In this document: positions 10,653 through 39,423 of the stretch, one piece after another
Position numbering within the stretch: position 1 is the stretch's first letter
Layout of the letters: every line of letters starts with the position of its first letter
Assembly: GCF_000379825.1 (NCBI RefSeq)
Contig: NZ_KB903813.1
Span: 757,333 to 821,332 of the forward strand
Source of the DNA: Longispora albida DSM 44784
GTDB taxonomy: Bacteria > Actinomycetota > Actinomycetes > Mycobacteriales > Micromonosporaceae
Length of the DNA stretch: 64,000 nucleotides
Reading direction: 5' to 3'
Notes under the pieces: generated by a model
The model's input: the letters and a program-made list of their open reading frames with translations, nothing else
Told to the model about the DNA's origin: nothing
Database searches by the model: none
Made by a program: the position numbers and the translations under genes

Positions 10653-12386
10653 GTGACTGCTGTCGAGCCGAAGCCGATCGTGACCCGGCCCTGGCCGGTT
10701 CACCAGGGCATCAAAGGATCGGCGTTCGCCCGACTGCTCCGCACCACTGACGCGAAGCAGATCGGGATCATGTACATGGTCACGGCCTTCGCGTTCTTCT
10801 TGGTCGGCGGGTTCCTCGCCCTCCTCATGCGCGTCGAGCTGGCCGAGCCGGGCGGGCAGTTCCTGTCGCCAGAGCAGTACAACCAGGCGTTCACCATGCA
10901 CGGCACGATCATGCTGCTGCTGTTCGCCACCCCGATCGTGTTCGCCTTCGGCAACTACATCGTCCCGCTCCAGATCGGTGCGCCGGACGTGTCGTTCCCG
11001 AGGCTGAACGCGTTCGCCTACTGGCTCTACCTGTTCGGCGGCACGATCGTCGTCGGCGGGTTCGCGACCCCGAACGGCGCCGCCGACTTCGGCTGGTTCG
11101 CGTACTCCCCGCTGACCGACGTCGCGCACTCGCCGGGCGCCGGCGCCGACATGTGGATCGTCGGCCTGATCATCTCCGGTCTGGGCACGATCCTCGGCGC
11201 GGTCAACATGGTCACCACGATCCTGACGCTCCGCGCGCCGGGTATGACCATGTTCCGGATGCCGATCTTCACCTGGAACCTGCTGATCACCAGCCTCCTC
11301 GTGCTGATGGTCTTCCCGATCCTGGCCGCGGCGCTCTCCGCGCTGGCAGCCGACCGGATCCTCGGCGCGCACGCCTTCGACCCGGAGACCGGCGGTGCGA
11401 TGCTCTGGCAGCACCTGTTCTGGTTCTTCGGCCACCCCGAGGTGTACATCGTGGCGCTGCCGTTCTTCGGCATCGTCTCCGAGATCTTCCCGGTGTTCAG
11501 CCGCAAGCCGATCTTCGGCTACAAGGGCCTGGTGGGCGCGACCCTCGGCATCGCCGCGCTGTCGATGACCGTGTGGGCGCACCACATGTTCGTCACCGGC
11601 CAGGTGCTGCTGCCGTTCTTCTCGCTGCTCAGCTTCCTGATCGCCGTGCCGACCGGTATCAAGTTCTTCAACTGGATCGGCACCATGTGGCGGGGTCAGC
11701 TGACCTTCGAGACGCCGATGCTGTTCTCGCTCGGCTTCCTGGTCACGTTCCTCTTCGGTGGCCTGTCCGGCGTGCTGCTGGCAGCCCCGCCGATCGACTT
11801 CCACGTGTCCGACACGTACTTCGTGGTGGCCCACTTCCACTACGTGCTCTTCGGCACCATCGTGTACGCCGTCTACGCCGGCATCTACTTCTGGTTCCCG
11901 AAGATGTTCGGCCGGATGCTCGACGAGCGCCTCGGCAAGTGGCACTTCTGGATGACCACGATCGGCTTCCACACCACCTTCCTCGTCCAGCACTGGCTGG
12001 GCACCGAGGGCATGCCGCGCCGGTACTTCGACTACCAGGAGCGCGACGGCTTCACCCTGCTGAACCAGATCTCCACGATCGGCGCGCTGATCACGGGTCT
12101 GTCCACGCTGCCCTTCCTGTGGAACGTGTACAAGTCCTACAAGGCCGGCAAGCTGGTCACGGTGAACGACCCGTGGGGCCACGGCGCCTCGCTGGAGTGG
12201 GCGACCACCTGCCCGCCGCCGCTGCGTAACTTCGACTCGATGCCGCGGATCCGCTCCGAGCGGCCGGCCTTCGACGAGAAGTTCCCGGAGTTCGCCCCGC
12301 AGGCATCGCCGCTCGCGGTGCCGGCCGGTGGCGCCAAGCCGAACACCCCAGAGTCGGACGGCGGCGCCACCTACAAAGACCACTAG
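10653..12386 (+). CDS. ctaD: Cytochrome c oxidase subunit I
   Basis: 577 residues, a full-length aa3-type oxidase subunit I with ~12 membrane helices. Diagnostic motifs in order: FTMHGTIM (heme a ligand), [14 protein letters not shown] (Cu-B His covalently linked to Tyr), [10 protein letters not shown] (Cu-B His pair) and [15 protein letters not shown] (His ligands to heme a3 and heme a). It reduces O2 to water and pumps protons in the membrane. Subunits II and III (ctaC, ctaE) are not beside it. The GTG at 10653 has GGAGG 6 nt upstream. The gene ends just before the structured element at 12404. Confidence 0.97.
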
Positions 12387-12403
12387 GTCTTTTGGGTAGT
12401 GCC

Positions 12404-12519
12404 GACCCGCTGAGCGAAAATCTGAGCTGCGCAGAAAAACCGCCCAAGTACACCAGTACTAGGGCGGTTTTTCTGCTTGTCAGATTTCCGCTCAGCGGGC
12501 CACCTCGCGTTAGATCAAG
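12404..12519. repeat. Dispersed structured hairpin element, copy 1
   Basis: 116 bp between ctaD and a convergent gene. Outer arms CCCGCTGAGCG-A-AAATCTGA (12406-12425) and TCAGATTTCCGCTCAGCGGG (12480-12499) pair with one mismatch. The middle stem GCAGAAAAACCGCCC (12431-12445) pairs perfectly with 12462-12476. The tip is AGTAC-ACCA-GTACT. The 3' flank GTTAGATCAAG is also shared with copy 2 at 38703-38820. Probably a bidirectional terminator or mobile palindrome. Confidence 0.85.
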
Positions 12520-12550
12520 AGCTAAGAGCTGATTGTGTACTGGCATGCAG

Positions 12551-12583
12551 AAGGGCCGGGCTCCCCCGTGGAACCCGGCCCTT
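12551..12583 (-). terminator. Terminator of LPXTG protein gene
   Basis: AAGGGCCGGG (12551-12560) pairs with CCCGGCCCTT (12574-12583), just past the 3' end of the leftward surface-protein gene. The gene thus has its own hairpin besides the larger element at 12404. Confidence 0.65.
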
Positions 12584-12601
12584 GCTGTGGTGTGTCGCTT
12601 G

Positions 12602-13630
12602 TTACGCCTCGACGTGGGCGTCGCGGCGACGGCGGCGGCCGAAGATGCCGACCAGGCCGGCGCCGATGGCGACCAGGCCGACGCCGAGGGCCGCGATCGA
12701 CGGCGTGCTGACGCCCGTCTTCGGCAGGGTCTCCTCGGCTGGCTTGGCGACCGGGGCGGCGGGCGGCTGGGCGGCCGGGGTCGTGACGACCGGAGCGGGC
12801 GCGGCGGCCACCGTGACCTTCTGGGTGGAGACGTTGTCGCCGGGCTTCGCGTCCAGCTCGACCGGGCCGAACGTCAGGACGGCCTCGGCCTCGCCAGCCT
12901 CGGTGAACACGGCCGAGAATTCGCCGGTGCTCCGCTCGCCGGGCTTCACGATGTGCGCGCCCGTCAGGTGGCCCTCGGGGGTGATCGCCGGCTGGTGCTC
13001 GATCTTGAGGCCCTTGCCGTTGATCTTGAGCACGCCCTCGGCGCCGTTCACGAGCTCGGTGCCGTTGTTGGTGAGCGAGACCCGGATCAGGGCCCGGTCA
13101 CCGGCCTTCGGTGAGGTGATCGGCCGCTTGGCGTAGTCGAGGATCTCGACGCTGGCGGCGATGTCGCCCTTCTTCGGCACGTAGAAGGTGAGGTCGTGGG
13201 GCTTGCCGGAGCCGTCCTTGCCGTAGGCGACCGAGCCGGTGAAGGTCTTGCCGTACGGCCGCTCCTGCGGGTCGTACGCGACGCCGAAGAGGCGTTCTTC
13301 TTCCTTGCCGGGCTCGACGACGCCGGCGGGGACGTACCACTTCACGCTGCCGTCCGGGTTGGTCCCGGTCTCACGGGCCGAGCCGTCGCCCATGATGCGC
13401 CAGCCGGCCGGCATCGTCACGACAGCCTCGCAGGGTGCCGTGGCGGTCCCGTTGTTGGTGCAGATGAACTTGGTGCTCATGCTGTACAGGGGGCCGAACG
13501 GCGAGAACGGGTACTGCGTGATCTTCAGTGTGACGTCTGGCGTCGTCTCGGCGAGCGCCGGAGTGGCGAGCGCGAGCGTCGCGGCGGAAACGCCCAGTGC
13601 CAGTGCCGCGGCGCGGCGGATGGTCTGCAT
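12602..13630 (-). CDS. LPXTG-anchored cell-surface protein
   Basis: 342 residues. Signal peptide 1-27 (ending PALAE), then ~240 residues of beta-sandwich-like sequence (TNNGTATAPCEAVVTMPAGW, SLTNNGTELVNGAEGV) resembling DUF11/Ig-type repeats. An Ala/Pro spacer leads to LPKTG at 302-306, a hydrophobic helix and RRRRR. This is a complete sortase signal, so the protein should be covalently linked to peptidoglycan. No sortase gene is in the window. ATG 13630 starts the signal peptide; the purine-rich GAGGGGG is ~12 nt upstream, rather far for a Shine-Dalgarno. Ligand or adhesive role unknown. Confidence 0.85.
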   Translation of the reverse strand: MQTIRRAAALALGVSAATLALATPALAETTPDVTLKITQYPFSPFGPLYSMSTKFICTNNGTATAPCEAVVTMPAGWRIMGDGSARETGTNPDGSVKWYVPAGVVEPGKEEERLFGVAYDPQERPYGKTFTGSVAYGKDGSGKPHDLTFYVPKKGDIAASVEILDYAKRPITSPKAGDRALIRVSLTNNGTELVNGAEGVLKINGKGLKIEHQPAITPEGHLTGAHIVKPGERSTGEFSAVFTEAGEAEAVLTFGPVELDAKPGDNVSTQKVTVAAAPAPVVTTPAAQPPAAPVAKPAEETLPKTGVSTPSIAALGVGLVAIGAGLVGIFGRRRRRDAHVEA

Positions 13631-30574: not shown

Positions 30575-30651
30575 GCGGGCATCATGCCGGATGCGCGCAT
30601 GGCACCGCGTCCCCGGTACACCGAAATGCTTTTGATCTGAGGCGCAGTGGT

Positions 30652-30692
30652 GGTTCTCAGGGCGATCCGCAGCCGTCGTCGCCCTGAGAACC
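30652..30692 (-). terminator. Terminator of the bcp operon
   Basis: GGTTCTCAGGGCGA (30652-30665) pairs perfectly with TCGCCCTGAGAACC (30679-30692), five bases past the bcp stop. Confidence 0.8.
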
Positions 30693-30696
30693 AGCC

Positions 30697-31164
30697 TCAC
30701 AGCCCGAGGTCGCGGCGGAGTTTGGCTACGTGGCCGGTGGCCTTGACGTTGTAGAAGGCGTGCTCGATGGTGCCGTCCTCGTCGATGACGAAGGTGGAGC
30801 GGATGACGCCCATGCTGACCTTGCCGTAGTTCATCTTCTCGCCGTAGGCGGCGTAGGCGTCGAGGACGCTCTTGTCCGGGTCGGAGACGAGGGGGAAGGT
30901 GATGGCGTCGCGTTCGGCGAACTTGGCGAGCTTCTCCGGCTTGTCGGGGGAGATGCCGACGACGGCGTAGCCCTGGGCCTGGAGTGAGGCGAGGGAGTCG
31001 CGGAAGTCGCAGGCCTGCTTGGTGCAGCCGGGGGTCATGGCTGCCGGGTAGGCGTAGAGGATGACCTTCTTGCCGCGCAGGTCCTTGAGGGCGAGCTGGC
31101 CGCCGTCGGCGGTGGCCAGGGTGAAGTCGGGCGCGGTGTCGCCCGCGGTGAGTCGCTCGGTCAT
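30697..31164 (-). CDS. bcp: Thiol peroxidase, Bcp/PrxQ type
   Basis: 155 residues, peroxiredoxin reducing peroxides. The peroxidatic Cys is in YPAAMTPGCTKQACDFRD, with the second Cys five residues later (CxxxxC, atypical 2-Cys as in Bcp). The usual P-KDxTPGCT segment reads PAAMTPGCT. Start overlaps the upstream stop (ATGA). Last gene of the redox operon. Confidence 0.93.
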   Translation of the reverse strand: MTERLTAGDTAPDFTLATADGGQLALKDLRGKKVILYAYPAAMTPGCTKQACDFRDSLASLQAQGYAVVGISPDKPEKLAKFAERDAITFPLVSDPDKSVLDAYAAYGEKMNYGKVSMGVIRSTFVIDEDGTIEHAFYNVKATGHVAKLRRDLGL

Positions 31165-37459: not shown

Positions 37460-38695
37460 ATGTCGGTTCGGTCGCGCCGCGGAGTGCTCGGCGCTCTCGC
37501 AGGTGCCCTGGCGCTTCCCGTCCTGGCCGCCTGCGGCCCGGAAGAGGGGAAGAAGTCCGGAGCATCGGGAGCGCAGCCCGAATCGGGCCAGCAGACCGCA
37601 GGAGCCGGAAAGCCGGCTCAGGCCGAGGCCGCCATCACGATCACCCCGGCCAACGGCGCGACGGGCGCCAGCCCCAGCCTGAGCGCCGTGACGGTCAAAG
37701 TGGACAACGGCACCCTGGAACAGGTCGTCATGACCAACCAGGCTGGCAAGGAAGTCAAGGGCACCCTCGCGGAGGACAAGAAGAGCTGGACGCTCGGTGA
37801 GCCGCTCGGCTACGAGAAGAGCTACACGGTCAAGGCTTCCGCGGTGACGGCCGAGGGGAAGAAGAGCGAGGCGACCAGCCAGTTCACCACCCTCAAGCCC
37901 GCCAACAAGACCATGCCGACCATCACGCCCGGCAACGGGACGTTCGGCGTCGGCCAGCCGGTCATCGTCAAGTTCGACGAGAAGATCAAGGACCGCAAGG
38001 CCGCGATGCAGCACCTGTCGGTCACGACCTCCCCGCAGGTGGAGGGCGGCTGGCGCTGGTTCAGCGACAGCGAGGTGCACTGGCGGCCCAAGGAGTACTG
38101 GAAGACCGGCACCAAGGTCACCGTCAAGGCCGCTGTCTACGGCGTCGACCTCGGCGGCGGCCTCTACGGCGAGGACGACCGCTCGACCACCTTCTCGATC
38201 GGCAAGTCGAAGATCGCGATCGCCGACCCGGACTCGAAGAAGATGCAGGTCTACATCGACGGGGCCCTGGTCAAGGAGTTCCCGGTCAGCCTCGGCAAGG
38301 GCGGCGTGAAGAACTTCGCCAACGGCAAGACCGTCGACTACTGGACCCGCAAGGGCCCCCACGTCGTCATCGGCAAGCAGAACCCCGTCCGGATGACCTC
38401 CGCCAGCTACGGCGTCCCCGCGGGCACCACCGAGTCCTACGACCAGGTCATCGGCTACGCCGTGCACATCTCCTACGCCGGTGAGTACGTCCACCTGCGC
38501 GACTGGAAGCTCGGCGACCTCGGCAAGGTCAACGACTCACACGGCTGCATCAACGTCGGCCCGGGCAACGCCCAGTGGTTCTACGAGACCTTCGGCCAGG
38601 GCGACATCGTCGACGTGAAGAACGGGCCGAAGATGCTGGAGCCGGGCGACGGCTGGGGAGACTGGGTAATCCCCTACTCCCAATGGGCCAACTGA
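37460..38695 (+). CDS. L,D-transpeptidase lipoprotein (Ldt/YkuD)
   Basis: 411 residues. Lipobox PVLAACG anchors it outside the membrane. Two Ig-like domains (~50-150 and ~150-255) precede the YkuD catalytic domain (~255-390), with the active-site motif SHGCINVGP and upstream YAVHISYAG. Architecture equals mycobacterial LdtMt2, which makes 3-3 peptidoglycan cross-links resistant to most beta-lactams. ATG 37460 has AAGGAAAGG upstream. Confidence 0.95.
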   Translation: MSVRSRRGVLGALAGALALPVLAACGPEEGKKSGASGAQPESGQQTAGAGKPAQAEAAITITPANGATGASPSLSAVTVKVDNGTLEQVVMTNQAGKEVKGTLAEDKKSWTLGEPLGYEKSYTVKASAVTAEGKKSEATSQFTTLKPANKTMPTITPGNGTFGVGQPVIVKFDEKIKDRKAAMQHLSVTTSPQVEGGWRWFSDSEVHWRPKEYWKTGTKVTVKAAVYGVDLGGGLYGEDDRSTTFSIGKSKIAIADPDSKKMQVYIDGALVKEFPVSLGKGGVKNFANGKTVDYWTRKGPHVVIGKQNPVRMTSASYGVPAGTTESYDQVIGYAVHISYAGEYVHLRDWKLGDLGKVNDSHGCINVGPGNAQWFYETFGQGDIVDVKNGPKMLEPGDGWGDWVIPYSQWAN

Positions 38696-38702
38696 CCGTT
38701 TG

Positions 38703-38820
38703 GACCCGGTGAGCGAAAATCTGAGCTGCGCAACGCAAAAGCCCGTGTACAACCAGTACACGGGCTTCCGCGTTGCTTGTCAGATTTCCGCTCACCGGGC
38801 CACTTCGGGTTAGATCAAAG
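38703..38820. repeat. Dispersed structured hairpin element, copy 2
   Basis: 118 bp, 8 nt past the transpeptidase stop and before a convergent gene. Outer arms CCCGGTGAGCG-A-AAATCTGA and TCAGATTTCCGCTCACCGGG. The middle stem GCAACGC/GCGTTGC plus GCCCGTGTAC/GTACACGGGC is unrelated in sequence to copy 1 yet pairs. The tip GTACAACCAGTAC and flank GTTAGATCAAAG match copy 1 (12404-12519). The fifth arm base pair is G-C here, C-G in copy 1. Confidence 0.85.
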
Positions 38821-38845
38821 ACTCAGATCAAGATCTTTGATTTTG
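38814..38845 (+). terminator. AT-rich hairpin with T-run after transpeptidase
   Basis: ATCAAAGA (38814-38821) pairs with TCTTTGAT (38834-38841), followed by TTT. Classic intrinsic terminator shape, unusual in this GC-rich DNA, joined to the end of element copy 2. Confidence 0.6.
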
Positions 38846-38892
38846 TACCGGGGGCGGAAAGTGGCCGTCCACTGGGGAGTGGTGGCTTGTCC

Positions 38893-39423
38893 TCAGTTGA
38901 AGGAGAAGACGACCAGAGTCGCGTTGAGGGCGTTCAGGCCGTTGAAGAGGCAGTCCAGGTTCGGGGTGACGACCGGGGCCTCGGTACCGGTGTCGCCGGC
39001 CAGGGGGCCGGTGTTCACCTGGATGCTCACGGCGGCGCTGCCCGTGGCCAGGTTGGTGTTCAGGACGGCGGAGATGCCGCTCTGCTGGCCGGTCGGCGTC
39101 CAGGTCAGCGTCCCGGTGAGGGTGATGGTCAGGACCAGGGTGCACGGGTTGAGGCCGGGTGCTGCTGTCGCTGTGCCGGAGGCGGTGAGGGTCGCCGACT
39201 TCAGCTGGGTGTAGGCGCCGTTGACGGAGACGCAGCCGGTGAGTGTGCCGGTGGCGGACACGGCGACCGTGCCACCGCTGGTGAGGGCGGGAGTGAAGGT
39301 CGCCTGGGCGGCTCCGGTGCAGGCCAGGTCGCCGACGGCCGCCTGCGCGGGGCCGGCCGGGACGGTCAGCGAGGCGAGCGCGAGGGTCAGTGCGGTTCCG
39401 AGAGCCAGCAGTCGTCGTCTCAT
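38893..39423 (-). CDS. Small secreted protein, unknown
   Basis: 176 residues. Signal peptide 1-28 (ending AQAAV), then a Thr/Ser/Gly-rich beta-type domain (VAVSATGTLTGCVSVNGAY, GTLTWTPTGQQSGISAVLNTN) with four cysteines that could form two disulfides. Resembles small actinobacterial exported beta-sandwich proteins; no named family. AGGAGG upstream of ATG 39423 is strong, suggesting high expression. Confidence 0.78.
   Translation of the reverse strand: MRRRLLALGTALTLALASLTVPAGPAQAAVGDLACTGAAQATFTPALTSGGTVAVSATGTLTGCVSVNGAYTQLKSATLTASGTATAAPGLNPCTLVLTITLTGTLTWTPTGQQSGISAVLNTNLATGSAAVSIQVNTGPLAGDTGTEAPVVTPNLDCLFNGLNALNATLVVFSFN

Follow-up and report, generated by a model that had tools for sequence, protein, structure and literature searches.

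The 64,000 nt stretch of the Longispora albida DSM 44784 genome (G000) analyzed here, hereafter referred to as the window, contains two strong hairpins at 12404..12519 (copy 1) and 38703-38820 (copy 2), both located 3' of a rightward gene and opposite a leftward one, as reported by the first-pass annotation. Copy 1 lies between COX1, whose stop codon (12384..12386, + strand) is 17 nt before GACCCG, and a leftward gene for an LPXTG-anchor protein, and copy 2 lies between an L,D-transpeptidase gene (stop codon at 38693-38695) and a leftward ORF with no Pfam match. The folding energies are -69.6 (+ strand) and -79.0 kcal/mol (- strand) for copy 1 and -69.7 (+) and -84.2 kcal/mol (-) for copy 2, with z scores of -10.9 to -13.0 relative to shuffled sequences, none of which (0/200) was equally stable. 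A hairpin-like sequence (AAGGGCCGGG...CCCGGCCCTT) also occurs at 12551-12583, in the space separating copy 1 from the leftward gene for the LPXTG protein, and this gene may accordingly own a separate terminator.

The elements are longer than the hairpins first recognized, extending over about 12397-12540 and 38693-38848, with TAGTGCC or TGACCGTTTG at one end and GTAC at the other. Copy 1 (12397..12540, with the - strand folding better) consists of a TAGTGCC left end, the nested hairpin, a purine-rich stretch, and a GTAC right end. Its outer and middle arms form an inverted repeat (12406..12425 and 12480..12499, + strand) around the core stem and apical loop, a variable module that is itself an inverted repeat (12431..12476, +), while the conserved 3' flank CCACCTCGCGTTAGATCAA, the purine-rich stretch, and the GTAC end occupy 12500..12540 (+). 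Copy 2 (38693..38848, -) has a TGACCGTTTG left end, in which TGA is the stop codon of the L,D-transpeptidase gene, a nested hairpin (outer and middle arms at 38705..38724 and 38780..38799, core stem and loop at 38730..38776, both inverted repeats, +), and a TTTTGTAC right end. The outer arms are common to both copies, with an outer pair that is C-G in one and G-C in the other (CCCGCTGAG/CTCAGCGGG vs. CCCGGTGAG/CTCACCGGG), and the apex GTACA(A)CCAGTAC and the flank GTTAGATCAA are present in both, in agreement with the earlier description. The same description held that the middle stems differ completely in sequence, which is true of other copies of the family but not of this pair, as both contain an A-rich part, CCC, and GTAC. 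A covariance model (R1) matched copy 1 at 12396-12518 (-, 133.9 bits) and copy 2 at 38695-38818 (-, 125.3 bits), as well as a third, degenerate relative consisting of TTTTGATCTGAGGCGCAGTGG and a short hairpin at 30632-30703 (+, 25.7 bits, E 2.2e-5).

A Dispersed Family of Nested Palindromes

With copy 1 as the query, BLAST returned 76 matches in the L. albida genome, many being the same copies on the opposite strand, and R1 gave 149 matches, with some elements matched on both strands. A right-end pattern matched 98 sites at ≤3 mismatches, and a looser one matched 120 sites at ≤2 mismatches (62 forward, 58 reverse); the reversed-pattern control matched none in either search. Among 101 right-end sites examined, 95 had a left end within 190 nt (a script criterion), so that both ends are present, whereas six had no left end, one of these being cut by the end of a contig. 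The body from GACCC to GATCAA is 115-120 nt long in 83 of the 95 copies, and the 13-mer of the loop occurs 77 times in the genome. The right ends listed for contig C2 (882 kb) lie beyond 508 kb.

In the orientation of the window + strand, an element is composed of TAGTGCC or TGACCGTTTG, an outer arm GACCCGCTGAG, a middle arm, the core stem, the loop, the mirrored arms, and CCACCTCGCGTTAGATCAA, after which follow purine-rich AAGATC/AAGAGC units and often TTTTGTAC. Middle arms and cores are interchangeable among copies. The middle arms are of four main types, three of which are combined with both kinds of left end, type D (5 copies) occurring with a single kind, and the core hairpin exists in 74 distinct versions forming 15 similarity clusters. 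The core is missing from several copies (e.g., L065, L084, and L104), and one mosaic copy (L024) joins one arm type to the core of another. The loop of the conserved apex includes the hexamer ACCGGU, which is self-complementary (as is ACUGGU if wobbles are allowed), and loop-loop pairing between copies is thus conceivable.

The elements are short, non-coding, and dispersed in many copies, as are MITEs. Those in the form found at gene ends have a strong outer palindrome with unlike termini, and a clear target duplication was not seen for this form among the L. albida copies. The family is one of MITE-like nested palindromes of the Micromonosporaceae and some relatives, in which one hairpin occurs in many interchangeable shells, and we regard the identification of the elements as a repeat family as very probably correct. 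Among the possibilities raised by the first-pass annotation, a mobile palindrome with retained arms and an exchanged core is well supported by the 120 right-end matches, the mosaic L024, and an orthologous site in a second species (L143/L122, below), and the elements are presumably mobile. That annotation had also proposed to scan the genome and its relatives with a covariance model, and had made its case depend on further copies and on conservation; R1 finds copies in this genome, in a genome of the same genus (G001), and in other genera. The family was not found described in the open-access literature searched, including text searches for the loop and for one core.

Position at Gene Ends

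Gene contexts, here and for the elements of other genomes described below, are based on calls by a GC3-based heuristic rather than on annotation. The left gene is on the + strand in 79 of the 95 L. albida elements, and the contexts are +- (45), ++ (33), -- (9), and -+ (6), with two undetermined. For 70 of those 79 (70/95), the stop codon of the rightward gene falls within -10 to +11 nt of GACCCG. The commonest offsets from GACCCG are 8 (18 genes), -10 (17), 4 (16), and 7 (8), of which -10 and 4 correspond to stop codons inside the element (CGCTGAG and TAGTGCC) and 7 and 8 to its edge. In 30 of the 45 convergent pairs, both stops are at the element, and almost nothing else lies between the two genes. 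On the other hand, a rightward gene is missing from the left side of 16 of the 95 elements, and the stop is further away in 9 of the other 79, which counts against the explanation favored below. At the 17 loci with offset -10 (e.g., L007, L014, L019-, L081, and L101), the upstream gene continues into the element and terminates at the TGA of CGCTGAG or a variant, by which the protein, read by eye, would gain a C-terminal tail of PTR-like sequence from the repeat.

The position between convergent stops in 30 of 45 pairs, together with a hairpin followed by TTCTGTT at the copy 1 site in G001, makes a function as a bidirectional terminator plausible, and a terminator-like role of the elements is likely when judged by their placement. 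Bidirectional intrinsic terminators likewise place a strong hairpin between convergent stops, but the present hairpins differ in that 120 related right ends exist in one genome and in that no T-tract was found at the two window copies. A search for T-tract terminators gave no site at 12300-12700, and none in copy 1, and one weak site at 38600-39000, outside copy 2.

Orthologous Sites in a Second Species

A DNA pattern for the left arm was present in only 1 of 41 genomes (its own) and absent from the 40 relatives examined, as if the family were private to this genome; this pattern was too narrow, and R1 found copies in G001. In that genome, R1 had 75 matches (with some elements matched on both strands), and the right-end pattern had 23 matches at ≤2 mismatches (control, 3), 18 of them at ≤1 mismatch. 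Half of the G001 stretches examined (10/20) align to element loci of L. albida, and in all ten matched gaps the element is present in both species with an interior that differs in each pair. The orientation is opposite in two of the ten (L153/L012 and L157/L028), and at the orthologous site L143/L122 the two copies have identical arms and unrelated cores, and the L. albida loop is inverted. Neither window copy has a counterpart at the orthologous gene ends of G001. After COX1 (matched stretch 93% identical), G001 has a hairpin of -37.8 kcal/mol and then TTCTGTT, and after the L,D-transpeptidase gene (74%), a 320-codon ORF begins approximately 10 nt past the stop.

The 44 listed of the 75 R1 matches in G001 are all within 4.65-8.61 Mb of its single 8.68 Mb contig, a region that surrounds the parS cluster (6.3 Mb). 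The clustering of these listed matches and the occurrence of half of the sampled stretches at L. albida loci suggest that a large part of the family may be ancient and have ceased to move, which counts against the explanation favored below. The conserved 13-nt loop UACCGGUGUUGUA is lacking in five of nine G001 elements examined. The apex GCAGGGC..GCCCT replaces the TACAACACCGGTA loop in L145, L146, L148, L151, L153, and L154 of G001, and right ends with TTACGCCGCG, where L. albida has GTACYGG, occur in five of the nine elements. Homogenization of ends and apices within each species is a possibility here. One L. albida gap (L120) contains both a deletion derivative with a short outer hairpin only and a divergent full element, and the matching G001 end (L149) has one element.

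Relatives in Other Genera

Among 150 genomes from the taxonomic family of L. albida, 61 had R1 matches, including its own, and 42 of the 298 genomes examined from the order contained the loop 13-mer. Of 19 loop-13-mer loci read, 12 (families f1, f2, f13, and f15) form the apex of a nested palindrome. The other seven (six f8 and one f4) do not and were dropped; the six f8 loci read like Asn-Thr-Gly-rich coding repeats, which we take to be MPTR-like. A scan of named genomes gave at least 117 stretches, and the 80 listed comprised 76 from genera of the Micromonosporaceae, as judged by name, two from an Actinophytocola MAG, one from Skermania, and one from a Prevotella MAG. The Prevotella match (L228) was dropped as a chance match; it was excluded from the clustering, shared-type, and shell analyses and from the mismatch counts made alongside the gene contexts, and is included in the tally of 74 elements below and in the gene contexts themselves.

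The outermost 16-mers pair with ≤3 mismatches in 71 of 73 named-genome elements. They form 24 script clusters, some of which represent one repeat in a shifted register, and include at least eight distinct repeats as judged by eye, and TA is present on both sides of 39 of 71 elements. These outer repeats with TA/CTAG flanks presumably resemble the ends of IS5-like elements. L. albida also carries the transposon-ended form in two copies (L098 and L106), and the end sequences of the family comprise both a AGAGGTCCTAACTCAATG repeat and TAGTGCC...GTAC. With respect to neighboring genes, 18 of 37 rightward genes on the left have their stops at -4 or -3 from the approximate element edge, and 16 of 37 leftward genes on the right at -6 to 0. 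Twelve named-genome elements were called inside a gene by the GC3-based caller, which also counts against the favored explanation.

A second covariance model (R2) was made from 33 palindromes of the named genomes (alignment A2, 33 of 73 elements). Its best two matches were the window copies (12385-12518, -, 50.9 bits, and 38687-38816, -, 48.0 bits; E 6e-10 and 3e-9), which indicates that the window elements and the named-genome palindromes have the inner hairpin in common. The inner hairpin is homologous across at least eight outer repeats. A relative of the gene-end type (TTGATCTAAACCTGGAGCCCGCTGAGG..., with a TACCGGTGTTGTA loop; R1, 76.9 bits) is present in another family of the order (L174 in G199), and a lone relative (L133, the one R1 match in G018) is at the 3' end of a gene, the C-terminus of which reads, we presume, like a SecA zinc motif.

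Covariation and Its Origin

Alignment A1 contains 63 distinct copies out of 82 full-length L. albida copies, from which near-identical ones were dropped. In this alignment, 39 pairs are predicted and 28 of them have changed on both sides, and 98.0% of cells are paired compared to 76.8% in shuffled and 32.9-46.5% in slid versions. There are 522 double-change cells vs. 147.6 in shuffles, and the covariation score is 0.582 vs. 0.178 (0/500 shuffles). Covarying pairs are therefore in excess of shuffles, as expected for a structured RNA, although copying from arm to arm can yield the same signal. Template switching between arms produces arm homogenization and loop inversion, according to PMC8604942. 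In L083 of L. albida and L207 of Phytohabitans, the usual asymmetry of the internal loop is gone and one arm perfectly complements the other for several bases, and the loops of L014 and L122 are inverted. The conclusion of the first-pass annotation that selection on structure is visible inside the window does not follow, since these arms and loops match the template-switching products given in PMC8604942. As inter-arm copying makes covariation without selection, covariation alone cannot decide in favor of RNA, and the homogenized arms and inverted loops point to DNA-level copying between arms.

The same features may be read as those of selfish palindromic repeats without a host function, in which covariation would result from template switching only and the gene-end position from insertion at TAG/CTAG only. 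Arm homogenization and loop inversion of the kind described in PMC8604942 would be expected under such a reading, which also accommodates the TA flanks in 39 of 71 elements, the stops within approximately 6 nt of the approximate edge (18/37 left and 16/37 right genes), the existence of core-deleted copies, and the absence of both window copies at the orthologous ends in G001. However, half of the sampled G001 stretches match L. albida loci although the interiors turn over, 83 of 95 copies keep a 115-120 nt body, and 30 convergent pairs have almost nothing else between them, and we regard purely selfish repeats as possible rather than probable.

Strand Polarity

In all 86 elements compared, the minus strand gave the more stable fold. 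On this strand, G-U pairs outnumber A-C pairs by 165 to 20 in A1, by 141 to 45 in 22 loop-bearing elements of other genomes, and by 420 to 155 in 74 named-genome elements (the chance match L228 included), among which 67 have more G-U, three have more A-C, and four are ties. When the L. albida cores are considered as 15 clusters, four have more G-U, three have more A-C, and eight are ties; 4 of the 74 distinct cores, in which the loop was not recognized, were left out of the G-U/A-C tally. Mismatch types seen once have G-U to A-C ratios of 32:25 in the named-genome set (p 0.43) and 5:8 in L. albida, whereas types in more than three elements are polar (13:2 and 9:1), the pooled ratios being 22:3 vs. 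62:41 for the rarer types (Fisher p 0.009). The polarity rests on a few common positions and may be inherited. Overall, these sequence comparisons suggest that folding of one strand matters, with a polarity that is moderate and fragile, and its value as proof of an RNA is weakened by the clustered cores and by the types seen once.

If the element worked in its own right as a structured RNA or as a hairpin of single-stranded DNA, the strand bearing the UACCGGUGUUGUA loop would fold and be recognized through the conserved 13-nt loop and the GGCAAG/GCGCAG internal loop, and the shells would only carry it. Such a hairpin is consistent with the minus-strand preference in 86/86 elements, the G-U excess in all three sets (165:20, 141:45, and 420:155), the polarity of shared mismatch types relative to rarer ones (p 0.009), and the retention of the loop across genera. 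It is at odds with the lack of significant polarity among the types seen once (32:25 and 5:8) and among clusters (4:3 with eight ties), and with the loss of the loop in five of nine G001 elements examined. Moreover, no promoter-like site was found in scans of the two window copies, and only tRNAs exceeded an Rfam gathering score in the window and in 16 loci. An RNA or single-stranded DNA function of this kind therefore appears unlikely. The better-folding strand is also antisense to the abutting gene, the opposite of what the terminator of that gene would need, and hence fits poorly with a simple terminator.

Comparison with Known Repeat Systems

The family is similar to MITEs such as RUP, ERIC, Correia/NEMIS, and the Yersinia palindromic sequence, which are reviewed by Delihas (PMC2229807), in that its elements are short, non-autonomous, palindromic, mostly intergenic, and present in many copies. 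The outer inverted repeats of the relatives in named genomes, flanked by TA, are a further similarity. The family differs from these MITEs in having one conserved inner hairpin in many shells, cores replaced copy by copy, and unlike termini in the gene-end form. EFAR repeats of Enterococcus faecalis lie near stop codons and are two-way terminators; the stop-codon position is shared with the present elements, whereas here the core varies and two-way termination is putative.

REP/BIME sequences associated with RAYT resemble the present elements in being extragenic palindromes and in the short left end that is conserved, and GTAG is a mark of REPs. Movement by a Y1 transposase as in REP/RAYT systems would agree with the GTAG-like left end that the hairpin of copy 1 adjoins. 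However, PF01797 had no match at E ≤ 0.001 in L. albida or G001, in a search that was able to find Y1 genes (in two of eight genomes searched), and an origin as REP/RAYT-type repeats is extremely improbable. The elements also share with integron attC sites an imperfect palindrome, one strand that folds better, and a variable middle. The attC core sites are RYYYAAC and GTTRRRY, and the GTTAGAT of the family resembles the latter. In contrast to attC sites, RYYYAAC is not present on the other side, many copies have CTTAGATC, and the copies are scattered rather than in arrays. An identity with attC was rejected as the left core site is absent by reading and the right site is variable (GTTAGAT/CTTAGAT).

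Proposed Mechanism and Implications

The explanation favored here is that of a non-autonomous, MITE-like family, which we hold, with its whole mechanism including the terminator-like role, to be somewhat more probable than otherwise. Copies would have spread by transposases acting in trans, and insertion would land on gene ends because CTAG holds the stop codon TAG. Inter-arm template switching would then renew the symmetry of the arms and also invert loops, while recombination at common arms may swap cores between copies. Once fixed, a copy would become the transcript end of the abutting gene, acting as a two-way, terminator-like hairpin and as a donor of stop codons to its neighbors. Other points against this explanation are that no transposase was identified as moving the gene-end form, that a clear target duplication was not seen for it, that no T-tract terminator was found in either window copy, and that the better fold belongs to the strand antisense to the abutting gene. 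A more speculative and rather improbable reading is that transposons are parasitized by the hairpin module with the 13-nt loop UACCGGUGUUGUA, which would be re-clothed in the ends of many unrelated transposons, exchange its core between copies, and act as a folded single strand of fixed polarity, with the copies at gene ends serving as two-way boundaries.

The 74 versions of the core hairpin, together with the orthologous sites in a second species, constitute a natural experiment on compensatory change, in which two causes, selection acting on a folded strand and arm-to-arm copying within a palindrome, can be separated. Covariation is widely taken as proof of RNA structure, and it can arise here without such selection. 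Interchangeable shells around one hairpin and cores that differ copy by copy are unusual for MITEs, and the copies at gene ends illustrate how a repeat may turn into a donor of stop codons and a boundary of many genes.
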